Of a DNA stretch of 64,000 nt, positions 38,450-54,704 are shown piece after piece. Positions within the stretch are counted from its first letter, which is position 1, and each line of letters begins with the position of its first letter. Origin of the DNA: Granulibacter bethesdensis (lineage in GTDB: Bacteria; Pseudomonadota; Alphaproteobacteria; Acetobacterales; Acetobacteraceae); the NCBI RefSeq assembly GCF_001889545.1, contig NZ_CP018194.1, positions 744,001 through 808,000 on the forward strand. The letters run 5' to 3'. A model generated the notes under the pieces. It worked only from the letters and a program-made list of their open reading frames with translations. It did not search any database and was not told the origin of the DNA. The position numbers were made by a program, and so were the translations under genes.

Positions 38450-39478
38450 ATGACACCCCTGCCTACTCCCCAGCAGCTCCGGTATCTGATGGCATTGGCC
38501 GAATACCAGCATTTTGGCCGGGCAGCGCAGGCTTGTGCGGTCACACAATCCACATTGTCGGCAGGTATTCTGGCGCTGGAGCGGCAGCTGGATGTGCAGA
38601 TTCTCGACCGGATCGGCGGAAAGCGCGTGATTTTTACGGCGCTGGGACGAGAACTGGTGGAGCGTGCCCGGGATGCCATGCATGCGCTGGAAGCAATGTC
38701 GGAGGCCGCTTCTGCCGCTCGCGCACCGATGAGTGGGCCACTGAGGGTAGGGGTCATTCCAACGATCGGCCCGTTTCTGCTGCCCCGTCTGATGCCGGCC
38801 CTGCGGCGTGAATATCCCAGTCTCCGGCTCTATCTGCGGGAAGATACCACCGACCGTCTGGTCGCAAGGCTGCGGGATGGACGGTTGGACCTGCTGCTGC
38901 TTGCGATGCCCTGTGACTGCAGGGGAATGGATACGGTGTCGATCGGGCGGGATTCGTTTCTGGTTGCCCTGCCACAGGGGCACAGGCTGGCGGAGCGGGA
39001 GGTTATTCCTATTGAAGCTCTCAGCATGGAGAATTTGTTGCTGCTGGAAGACGGACACTGCCTGCGCGAGCACGCGCTGGCCGCCTGCGGGCTGCTCATG
39101 GCGCATGAGAAAAACGCCAGTGAGGAGGAAAGTGCCAGTAAGAAGGAAAGTGCCAGTAAGAAGGAAAGTGAGGGTGACCCTGTCCGGACTGTCGAAACAC
39201 GCAGCCGCGACGTCCAGAACGGAGATGGCCTGACTGATCAGTTCGCGGCTACCAGCCTGCATACGCTGGTGCAGATGGTGGCAGGTGGACTGGGCATCAC
39301 ATTGCTCCCGCAAATTGCGGTGGATGCCGGGGTGATGGCGGGTACGTCGCTGGTGCTGCGACCGCTTGAAGGGGATGGTGCATGGCGGGAACTGGGGCTT
39401 GCCTGGCGGCATAATGCGCCGCGTGGTGCCGATTATCTCGGTATGGCATCGCTGCTGCGGGAGGCGGCGGGGTTTTGA
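38450..39478 (+). CDS. oxyR: OxyR, LysR-type peroxide sensor with an expanded redox domain
   Basis: Transcription activator of peroxide defence. N-terminal winged helix (LPTPQQLRYLMALAEYQHFG..AAQACAVTQSTLS) and a regulatory domain with the redox pair Cys204 and Cys213 in GHCLREHALAAC, spaced exactly as the E. coli Cys199/Cys208 pair. Then ATSLHTLVQMVAGGLGITLLP, as in other OxyR proteins. Between the second cysteine and ATSLH lies an unusual stretch of roughly 45 residues rich in Ser, Glu and Lys, partly encoded by an 18-bp tandem repeat. Full length is 342, longer than the usual ~305. It is divergent from ahpC, a normal target. Confidence 0.92.
   Translation: MTPLPTPQQLRYLMALAEYQHFGRAAQACAVTQSTLSAGILALERQLDVQILDRIGGKRVIFTALGRELVERARDAMHALEAMSEAASAARAPMSGPLRVGVIPTIGPFLLPRLMPALRREYPSLRLYLREDTTDRLVARLRDGRLDLLLLAMPCDCRGMDTVSIGRDSFLVALPQGHRLAEREVIPIEALSMENLLLLEDGHCLREHALAACGLLMAHEKNASEEESASKKESASKKESEGDPVRTVETRSRDVQNGDGLTDQFAATSLHTLVQMVAGGLGITLLPQIAVDAGVMAGTSLVLRPLEGDGAWRELGLAWRHNAPRGADYLGMASLLREAAGF
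39119..39172 (+). repeat. Three-copy 18-bp tandem repeat inside oxyR
   Basis: Units at 39119-39136, 39137-39154 and 39155-39172; the consensus is AGTAAGAAGGAAAGTGCC. The first copy differs at two positions and the third at its last two. Each encodes six residues (Ser-Lys-Lys-Glu-Ser-Ala) and keeps frame, so copy number could change without breaking oxyR. Confidence 0.95.
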
Positions 39479-52114: not shown

Positions 52115-53692
52115 TCAGGCCAGTATCGCTTTCTCCCTTTTGCGCTGCACCGAACTGGGGATGCGCAGCGCTTCCCGGTATTTGGCCACTGTTCTGCGGG
52201 CGATGTCTATACCCTCCTGTTTCAAATGTGTGACCAGGGCGTCATCGGAGAGGATATCGCTGGCTGGTTCCTGATCAATCAGCGTTCTGATGCGGTGGCG
52301 AATGGCTTCTGCACTGACATTTTCCCCATCTGTACCGCTGATCGCGGTGGTGAAGAAATATTTCAGTTCCAGCGTTCCACGAGGGGTGGCGATGTATTTA
52401 TTGGCAGTGACCCGGCTGACGGTGCTTTCATGCATGTCCACCGCCTCTGCGATATCCCGCAGGATCAGGGGCTTCAGGTGGCTGACGCCGTGGCGGAAAA
52501 AAGCCTGCTGCTGTCGGACGATCTCCGCGGACACGCGCAGAATGGTCTGCGCCCTTTGTTGAAGGGATTTCACCAGCCAGTGAGCGGTATTTAATTTTTC
52601 ATTGATAAAGGAGCGATCATCCCGGCTCATCGACCGGCGGGCGAGTCGGAGATGGCTGCCCATATTCACCAGCACGCGGGGCATCGTGTCGGGGTTCAGC
52701 TCGATCAGCCAGTCGCCGGCAATCGCGGCATCCAACAGCAGCGGGGCGGAGAGCTGATCATCATCATCATTGCGGGCAGTGGCGGGGCGGCGGGACATCA
52801 GCACGTCCGGGATCATGGTCTGGGGCAGATCAGAGTCGAAGCCGGCACCTGGTTTGGGGTTACAGCGTTTGATATCGGCGATCATGCCCGCCAGATCTTC
52901 CGCATCCACCCCGCACAGGCTCATCAATCGCCGGTGATTCCGCTGGGCCAGCAGATCGAGATGCTCCAGCAGAATGGCCATGGCGGGGTCATAGCGGTTG
53001 AAGGCCTGCAACTGTGTTGTCAGACATTCTTTCAGATCCACACAGAACAGCCCCGGTGGATCGAAATGGCGCATTGCCGTGCGAATGGTTTCCAGGTGAG
53101 GCAGGGTGCAGTTCAGGGCCTGGGCAATCGCGGCGGGGGGCATGGTCAGCCGGCCTGCCGCATCAAGCACGGCTATCAGATGTGCACCGATCAGCCGGTC
53201 CTGTGGGCTTGCAAAACACAGACGCAGTTGCTCGGCCAATTGCTCCCTCAGGCTGGGCCGGTATTCAAGTCGCTGGCTGATGACGTCGAACGGGTTGTTA
53301 TCGAAAGACTCTGTGCGGTTGCTGGCTGATTGGCTGGAAAGAAAAGGGGAGGTTTCTCCCGGATCGTCGTAGAGGGAGCCAGGGTCGACATCCAGGGGGC
53401 TGCCATCGGATATCAATCGGTCGGAACTGGCGGCTTGGGCGCTATCGAGAAAATCCGGTTCCGGTCCGGTCTGATCAGGGGCTGGCCGTTCCTGGGTCAG
53501 ATCCGTGCTTTCATCGCGCTCCAGCAGAGGATTACGCTCCAGCTCCTCCTCGATAAAGGCGGCTACTTCCATATTGTTGAACTGCAGCAGCTTGATAGCC
53601 TGACGCAGCTGGGGCGTCATCACCAGAGACTGGGACTGGCGAAGATCAAGCCGGGGGCCGATGCCCGTGCCGTAAGCTGAGCCAAGCGCCAT
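52115..53692 (-). CDS. rpoN: RNA polymerase sigma-54 factor RpoN
   Basis: Sigma factor that reads -24/-12 promoters and needs enhancer-binding ATPases. Region I is seen at LDLRQSQSLVMTPQLRQAIKLLQFNN, followed by an acidic region II with DES and ERPAPDQTGPEP. The core-binding and DNA-binding parts follow, with the helix-turn-helix near AVDMHESTVSRVTANKY and the RpoN box ARRTVAKYRE at the C-terminus. The ATG at 53692 (MALGSAYG) fits better than 53728. Two tandem -24/-12 matches lie 68-107 bases upstream of its start. hpf follows after 121 bases. Confidence 0.95.
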   Translation of the reverse strand: MALGSAYGTGIGPRLDLRQSQSLVMTPQLRQAIKLLQFNNMEVAAFIEEELERNPLLERDESTDLTQERPAPDQTGPEPDFLDSAQAASSDRLISDGSPLDVDPGSLYDDPGETSPFLSSQSASNRTESFDNNPFDVISQRLEYRPSLREQLAEQLRLCFASPQDRLIGAHLIAVLDAAGRLTMPPAAIAQALNCTLPHLETIRTAMRHFDPPGLFCVDLKECLTTQLQAFNRYDPAMAILLEHLDLLAQRNHRRLMSLCGVDAEDLAGMIADIKRCNPKPGAGFDSDLPQTMIPDVLMSRRPATARNDDDDQLSAPLLLDAAIAGDWLIELNPDTMPRVLVNMGSHLRLARRSMSRDDRSFINEKLNTAHWLVKSLQQRAQTILRVSAEIVRQQQAFFRHGVSHLKPLILRDIAEAVDMHESTVSRVTANKYIATPRGTLELKYFFTTAISGTDGENVSAEAIRHRIRTLIDQEPASDILSDDALVTHLKQEGIDIARRTVAKYREALRIPSSVQRKREKAILA

Positions 53693-53759
53693 GCGGCGAG
53701 TGCCTTTTCCCGAACAGAACGATATCAAAATATCGCAAGACTGTCCGGGCTGCCAAGAA

Positions 53760-53799
53760 GATGGCCCGAGATTTGCATTGATGGCCTGAGATTTGCATC
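53760..53799 (+). promoter_or_regulatory. Two tandem sigma-54 (-24/-12) promoter matches upstream of rpoN
   Basis: A 20-base unit is repeated head-to-tail with two differences (53760-53779, 53780-53799). Each copy carries GG and GC dinucleotides exactly 10 bases apart: TGGCCCG-AGAT-TTGCA at 53762-53777 and TGGCCTG-AGAT-TTGCA at 53782-53797. Against the consensus YTGGCACGRNNNTTGCW the first misses two positions and the second three. Both read rightward, away from rpoN and toward the 3' end of lptB. They may let sigma-54 repress its own gene or start an RNA antisense to lptB. Confidence 0.6.
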
Positions 53800-53861
53800 A
53801 GCCGCGGCGAAAATGTCACCCTGCCAAAAAGGATCTCTTCCGAGGCGGATACGCGATCAGA

Positions 53862-54704
53862 TCAGAGAGAGAAACTCTCACCCAGATAGACGCGGCGGAC
53901 GCCTTCATGCTGCACCACTTCATAAGGGGCGCCTTCCATCAGCAGCTGTCCACCATGCAGGATATAAGCGCGATCAATGACTTCCAGTGTTTCACGCACG
54001 TTGTGGTCCGTGATCAGCACGCCAATCCCGCGCTGCTTCAGATGACCAACCAGATCACGGATTTCGCCCACTGCGATGGGGTCAATGCCTGCAAGCGGCT
54101 CGTCCAGCAGGATATAGCCGGGCTGGGTCGCCAGGGCTCGGGCAATTTCCAGTCGGCGTCGTTCTCCGCCCGACAGGGCCAGGGCGGGAGTACGCCGCAG
54201 ATGGCCGATGCCGAACTCGGACAACAGCTCCGCGAGCATATGCTCGCGTGTGGTGCGGTTGCTTTCGACGACCTCCAGAGCGGCCATGATGTTCTGTTCG
54301 ACATTCAGCCCACGAAAGATGCTGGCTTCCTGCGGGAGGTAGCCGATGCCCAGACGGGCACGCCGATACATGGGCAGGCCGGTAATATCGCTGCCATCAA
54401 GCTGGATCGAGCCGGTATCAGGTCGCACGAGGCCGACGATCATATAGAAGGTGGTGGTTTTGCCGGCTCCGTTTGGTCCCAGCAGCCCCACAGCCTCGCC
54501 ACGTTGGACGAAGACCGAGACGTTCCGCACGACAGGGCGTTTCTTATAGGTTTTGCCAACACCGATGGCCGCAAGGCCATGCGTGATTTTAGCCGGATCG
54601 ACCCTCGGCTTGTATCCGCTCCCCTGTGACCCGTGATCATATCCGGAGGCAGAAGAGGGCTCTGCGGCAAGGCTGGAGGCAGAAGGTTGCTCGTTCATGC
54701 TCAT
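53862..54704 (-). CDS. lptB: LPS export ABC transporter ATPase LptB
   Basis: Cytoplasmic ATPase that powers extraction of lipopolysaccharide with LptFG. Walker A LGPNGAGKTTTFYM, signature LSGGERRRLEIARAL, Walker B YILLDEPLAGIDP, and the H-loop ITDHNV are all present. It has an N-terminal extension of about 40 residues, rich in Ser and Gly, compared with the usual ~240-residue protein; a later start at an internal codon cannot be excluded, but the ATG at 54704 overlaps the lptA stop by 4 bases. lptF and lptG are not in the window. Confidence 0.95.
   Translation of the reverse strand: MSMNEQPSASSLAAEPSSASGYDHGSQGSGYKPRVDPAKITHGLAAIGVGKTYKKRPVVRNVSVFVQRGEAVGLLGPNGAGKTTTFYMIVGLVRPDTGSIQLDGSDITGLPMYRRARLGIGYLPQEASIFRGLNVEQNIMAALEVVESNRTTREHMLAELLSEFGIGHLRRTPALALSGGERRRLEIARALATQPGYILLDEPLAGIDPIAVGEIRDLVGHLKQRGIGVLITDHNVRETLEVIDRAYILHGGQLLMEGAPYEVVQHEGVRRVYLGESFSL

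Follow-up and report, generated by a model that had tools for sequence, protein, structure and literature searches.

The rpoN locus

The window is the whole stretch of 64,000 nucleotides that was analysed (G000:C1:744001-808000), and the genome it belongs to is a single contig of 2.74 Mb. In this window rpoN, the gene for sigma-54, is located at 52115-53692 on the minus strand (NF004596, 701.5 bits, above cut-off), and its upstream neighbour lptB is located at 53862-54704 on the same strand (TIGR04406, 357.2 bits, above cut-off). The likely start of rpoN is the ATG at 53692, and the first possible start is an upstream TTG at 53728. The best sigma-70-like match, taken as the predicted rpoN promoter, consists of a -35 hexamer TTGGCA (53751-53756) and a -10 hexamer TATTTT (53727-53732), both on the minus strand and separated by a spacer of 18. 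A perfect 6-4-6 palindrome, CGATAT-CAAA-ATATCG (53720-53735), lies over the predicted -10 and is kept in the three species of the genus that were compared.

Between the predicted promoter and lptB, two 20-base units follow each other head to tail on the plus strand, 68-107 bases ahead of the likely ATG. The proximal unit GATGGCCCGAGATTTGCATT (53760-53779) and the distal unit GATGGCCTGAGATTTGCATC (53780-53799) are identical at 18 of 20 bases, and both have the GG-N10-GC spacing and the TGGC-N7-TTGCA bases of a sigma-54 -24/-12 element, oriented away from rpoN and toward the 3' end of lptB. We scored them with a matrix built around the consensus TGGCACG-N4-TTGCW, which appears in a report that also lists rpoN among the NifA targets (PMC4999443). 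With assigned rather than fitted weights and a maximum of 20.3 bits, the proximal core TGGCCCGAGATTTGCA (53762-53777) scores 17.9 bits and the distal core TGGCCTGAGATTTGCA (53782-53797) scores 16.7 bits, and these are the two highest scores on both strands of the window, followed by a match of 13.5 bits. The original prediction of a tandem, near-consensus -24/-12 pair ahead of rpoN and pointing away from it is thus confirmed in bases, spacing and coordinates, as well as by weight-matrix score.

Tandem Repeats Finder returned 7 rows for the window at a score of at least 40, among which the repeat at 53760-53799 ranks second; the top-scoring one is located at 39116-39170, with 3.1 copies of an 18-base unit. 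Besides, an ORF of 278 aa on the plus strand (53793-54629), probably a shadow ORF, starts within the distal unit and runs opposite lptB.

For the two other species of the genus, whose RpoN is 92% identical to the protein encoded here, it turned out that a single copy, TGGCCTGAGATTTGCA, is present at the rpoN-proximal position, and that the position of the distal copy is a 20-base alignment gap in both. On this comparison the pair is one site duplicated in tandem, with the proximal copy at the apparent ancestral position; the proximal copy of this genome is now nearer to the consensus at -21, and, of the three species, only this genome has the second copy. Since the other two species are single-copy, the second copy provides no independent evidence, and the duplication, at first thought to be the significant feature of the locus, was dropped as such. 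The predicted TTGGCA-18-TATTTT is identical in all three species, and in each of them its -35, as far as the promoter is predicted correctly, starts 5 bases from the proximal core.

In the whole genome, the strict pattern YGGCNYGNNNNTTGCW has 19 matches, compared with 14 for the reversed control pattern. The match at G000:303555 scores 18.1 bits, above both rpoN-upstream cores, and is kept in all three species. Because this and a few more strict matches are found in all three species, conservation within the genus says little on its own. Apart from the pair, each of the 17 remaining matches overlaps an ORF of at least 90 aa (a few on the opposite strand only), and the proximal copy, which is the copy examined here, overlaps none. 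The background in the family is 1.4 matches per 100 kb of strand at 14 bits (41 loci, with the rpoN-upstream sites counted). A supposed glnK-amtB pair downstream of the match at G000:1782232 was rejected, as the ORF there starts some 370 bases away and resembles an outer-membrane protein.

The genome encodes an enhancer-binding protein that could activate sigma-54 holoenzyme. There are four PF00158 matches, two of them strong, of which one contains GAFTGA and the other does not; we take the GAFTGA-bearing activator to be NtrC-like. The weak matches mean little, since the search for sigma-54 activator domains gave matches in all 14 control genomes. The best NtrC-like palindrome in 53400-53900 is one with 3 mismatches to the NtrC consensus, and the absence of a convincing NtrC site there would fit, weakly, a silent closed complex.

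Survey of rpoN upstream regions

We collected the rpoN upstream regions of 163 genomes of the same family, together with 86 other alphaproteobacterial and 69 gammaproteobacterial records; three own-family regions (L013, L127 and L396) are shortened by contig ends. Sites that face away from rpoN are called backward and those that face into it forward. When the own family was scanned with the matrix at a threshold of at least 12 bits, from -200 to +30 relative to the match start, 22 of the 163 regions contained a backward site and 15 a forward one, leaving 141 with no backward site at this threshold. Among the genomes sampled, the backward site is found in all three of this genus (g1), in six of six from genus g90, six of six from g112, the only one from g24, one of two from g5 and three of four from g75, where it lies inside the rpoN start. 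The sites of g90 and g112 are off consensus, five of the six in g112 reaching only 12.8-13.9 bits, and L007 and L148 have backward matches of 12.6-12.7 bits. Of 144 intergenic regions, 15 contained a backward match at 14 bits and 11 a forward one, whereas 30 shuffled sets averaged 0.63 and 0.50. Conservation in relatives, on which the original prediction depended, therefore holds for a single backward site, in all three species of the genus and in other lineages, and fails for the pair, which among the three species compared occurs in this genome only.

Several of the forward matches lie across the rpoN start codon, namely 5 of the 15 (all in g90), plus one of the two in each of L156 and L139, and these may be a coding coincidence. 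In the five g90 regions (L203, L204, L207, L209 and L218), the forward core TGGCATGGCTYTTGCT lies over the ATG and a backward site is located at -54 to -62, so that the core is either such a coincidence or a second operator. At -70 to -99, a strong site that reads into rpoN is found in five g34 regions (L125, L135, L149, L155 and L393) and also in L146 and L156. In g34, it is present in all five sampled regions with 17.0-17.4 bits at -81 to -99. These forward sites suggest that rpoN may be transcribed by sigma-54 holoenzyme in g34, L146 and L156, and that the feedback in g34 may have the opposite sign, i.e., positive autoregulation.

Two further alphaproteobacterial families, f95 and f55, were picked because a member of each in the class sample had a match, and regions from 19 of 24 f95 genomes and from 25 of the 37 matching f55 genomes were used. 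The matrix scan gave backward sites in 13 of 19 regions in f95 (14.9-17.8 bits; the one in L440 at -153) and in 15 of 25 in f55 (at least 11.5 bits), with no forward site in either family. Among the 69 gammaproteobacterial regions, there were 1 backward and 2 forward matches at 12.5 bits.

We also counted, independently of the matrix, the exact core TGGC-N7-TTGC within -160 to +10. It turned out that f95 has 13 backward and 0 forward cores in 19 regions (shuffle means 0.22 and 0.07), f55 has 16 and 1 in 25 regions (0.19 and 0.19), and the own family has 8 and 11 in 163 regions (0.62 and 1.05), where 100 shuffles gave at most 3 backward cores. The remaining alphaproteobacterial regions have 0 of 83 backward and 4 of 83 forward, and the gammaproteobacterial regions 0 of 69 in both orientations. 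These 83 are the 86 class regions after removal of L339 and L350, which belong to f95/f55, and of L039, whose compared stretch exactly matches that of the f95 row L459; they include L035 (titled Acetobacteraceae), four Inquilinus, two Haematospirillum and two Maritalea, and are thus not one per family. When one mismatch was allowed, the own family had 27 backward cores (shuffle mean 11.0, maximum 19) and 19 forward ones, which is no enrichment (mean 14.4, maximum 24), while f95 had 13 backward and 0 forward and f55 had 18 and 2. The backward counts in the other alphaproteobacteria (4, mean 4.1) and the gammaproteobacteria (4, mean 3.3) are at chance level, and their forward counts (8 and 6) are inside the shuffle range. 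A class-wide feature was rejected on the count of 0 of 83; as these numbers indicate, the enrichment is conservation inside certain lineages rather than a class-wide rate.

Conservation of the site and its genomic context

In site-centred alignments, the identity of the core columns exceeds that of the flanks, namely 1.00 versus 0.31 in g90, 0.92 versus 0.26 in g112, 0.98 versus 0.35 in f95 and 0.92 versus 0.35 in f55, where the core values are inflated by choosing the best match for alignment. The alignments contain 12 of the 13 f95 rows (all except L440) and 11 of the 15 f55 rows, from which L473, L474, L482 and L486 were omitted as near copies or outliers. In g90, g112 and f95 there is also an invariant A beside TGCA, at a position that the motif score does not include.

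For 73 of the 163 own-family genomes, we built an RpoN protein tree with site labels assigned by hand, in which g112 rows of 12.8 bits count as having the site, L007 (12.7) as having none, and some weaker forward sites are unlabelled. All 13 rows of g90, g24 and g112 have a backward site and cluster together (100/100). This genus falls outside that group, on a long branch without a resolved place; the rows of g75 and one row of g5 are found in other parts of the tree. The backward site is either old with frequent loss or repeatedly gained.

The gene directly upstream of rpoN differs among lineages with the site. It is lptB in this genus, in the g90 and g24 rows and in L466 and L475 (in all but this genus by a C-terminal motif), a T2SSF protein in L427 (g112), MutS in L476, a GST-like protein in L481, a histidine kinase in L445 and a divergent M20 peptidase in L484. 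A divergent rimP is found in L434 and, by eye, in L438, L458 and L459; L468 has a Sir2-like protein under the family cut-offs, and the upstream ORFs of L435, L339, L441 and L483 have no Pfam match. In L469, L470, L473, L483 and L486, an lptB-like end is located farther upstream. In g90, g112, f95 and f55, the site accompanies rpoN through changes of flanking sequence and of upstream gene, as a conserved operator would, although in a lineage-restricted way. The sites, their orientation, their recurrence and the fact that they go with rpoN and not with a particular neighbour are all read directly from these regions. As many lineages with the site have another gene than lptB directly upstream, an RNA antisense to lptB, proposed at the outset as one product of the pair, is disfavoured as a general role. 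The divergent upstream gene of some f95/f55 members could be served by the site.

Proposed function of the backward site

The best reading of these data, with a probability of about 0.6, is that the backward site is a negative-autoregulation operator of rpoN, at which bound sigma-54 holoenzyme would occlude the rpoN promoter; the recurrence of backward sites at rpoN speaks for autorepression by holoenzyme occupancy, as originally suggested. Sigma-54 RNA polymerase on the backward -24/-12 element would form a closed complex that stays silent without an enhancer-binding protein. The bound holoenzyme would overlie the upstream edge of the predicted housekeeping promoter, exclude the sigma-70 polymerase, and more sigma-54 would thereby lower its own synthesis. 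A sigma-54 closed complex extends about ten bases past the -24 element, so the predicted -35 should be reachable from the proximal copy and not from the distal one. Two polymerases would not fit on copies spaced by only 20 bases, and the doubling is therefore more likely to adjust occupancy than to bring a new function. For this autorepression, we infer binding, the position of the promoter, occlusion and the sign of the effect. In three of six g90 rows, a predicted -35 of TTGGAA or TTGACA lies at a distance of 6-8 bases from the site, and the promoter predictions in f95, f55 and g112 are weak or inconsistent.

Other explanations were weighed against the same evidence. The element might be a working NtrC-dependent promoter, producing an antisense or small RNA into lptB here and transcribing the divergent upstream gene elsewhere. 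The cores are promoter-grade, the genome encodes a GAFTGA activator, and some f95/f55 members have a divergent gene (rimP, the M20 peptidase or unknown ORFs) in a suitable position; however, the upstream gene is inconstant and 53400-53900 has no NtrC-like palindrome under 3 mismatches, which makes such a promoter unlikely. The divergence of the two elements would also suit back-to-back activation, in which distortion of the DNA by a divergent sigma-54 polymerase would enhance transcription from the sigma-70 promoter of rpoN, as a positive feedback. This is quite improbable, since the footprints should overlap with only 5 bases between core and predicted -35, and since in f55 and g75 the site is close to or at the start of rpoN (two f55 rows, at -90, excepted), a position at which blocking is more readily pictured than stimulation. 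A match that arose by chance and was then copied by a fortuitous tandem duplication would agree with the strict pattern being barely enriched genome-wide, with the second copy being private and with other strict matches, such as that at 303555, being kept in the three species as well. We consider it very unlikely, because recurrence at the same gene in other lineages is far above the shuffles and a single orientation is preferred in f95 and f55.

Occupancy of this kind is known in outline. In E. coli, RpoN holoenzyme represses RpoD promoters at "repressive promoters", where, much as at the present site, it is proposed to keep sigma-70 holoenzyme off an overlapping promoter (PMC8743547); the available text of that report has no mention of rpoN as a target that we could find, whereas here the controlled gene would be rpoN itself and the site faces away from it. 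Repression by sigma-54 where its own site overlaps another promoter is also referred to as earlier work in PMC4591121, in which 8 of 50 intergenic sigma-54 sites point away from the neighbouring genes and intragenic sites have no effect on the overlapping gene. For glmY/glmZ, competing sigma-70 and sigma-54 promoters are described, with glmZ increased in a Salmonella rpoN mutant (PMC3844500). There too, two holoenzymes vie for overlapping elements, but both promoters are understood to drive the same RNA, while the promoters here point apart.

The rhizobial precedent for rpoN autorepression rests on a single sentence, in which the rpoN of R. leguminosarum is stated to be negatively autoregulated (PMC3538637), so an alphaproteobacterial rpoN has been reported to lower its own expression, but in the accessible text of that paper we found no DNA site described, backward or otherwise. 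Sigma-54 promoters have been inferred for rpoN in several classes, including alphaproteobacteria (PMC12316311), and are taken as autoregulation as well; there, rpoN is described as transcribed through them, whereas the element here faces the other way. Nothing on a backward site was found in the available text of PMC3616915, PMC2245857, PMC10274813 and PMC13207237. In the open-access literature, as far as its text was available, we found no description of such a site ahead of rpoN, though one may have been published, for instance in the older rhizobial literature. Holoenzyme-occupancy autorepression being known in outline, what seems new is the repeated occurrence of a reversed site in association with rpoN, and its distribution over lineages.

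Control of sigma-54 genes is usually credited to enhancer-binding proteins. If a conserved holoenzyme operator lies before rpoN, it would form a feedback loop without an extra repressor, and the reported negative autoregulation of rpoN would gain a candidate DNA site. A broader proposal, which we regard as tentative and somewhat doubtful, is that the reversed element is a dedicated rpoN autorepression operator kept or gained several times in Alphaproteobacteria, that the forward element of g34, another genus of the family, is a sigma-54 promoter for rpoN, that the sign of the feedback would differ between relatives by the orientation of one 16-base element, and that the negative element was recently doubled here.

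Additional observations

Elsewhere in this genome, a sigma-54-like match CGGCACGGGGATTGCT (G000:C1:2715747-2715762, L294) is found in all three species and precedes an ORF that by eye resembles glycogen phosphorylase. In f55 loci such as L470, L473, L483 and L484, CGTTAACC is located upstream of the backward site; it resembles a CtrA half-site, and may hint at cell-cycle control of rpoN.
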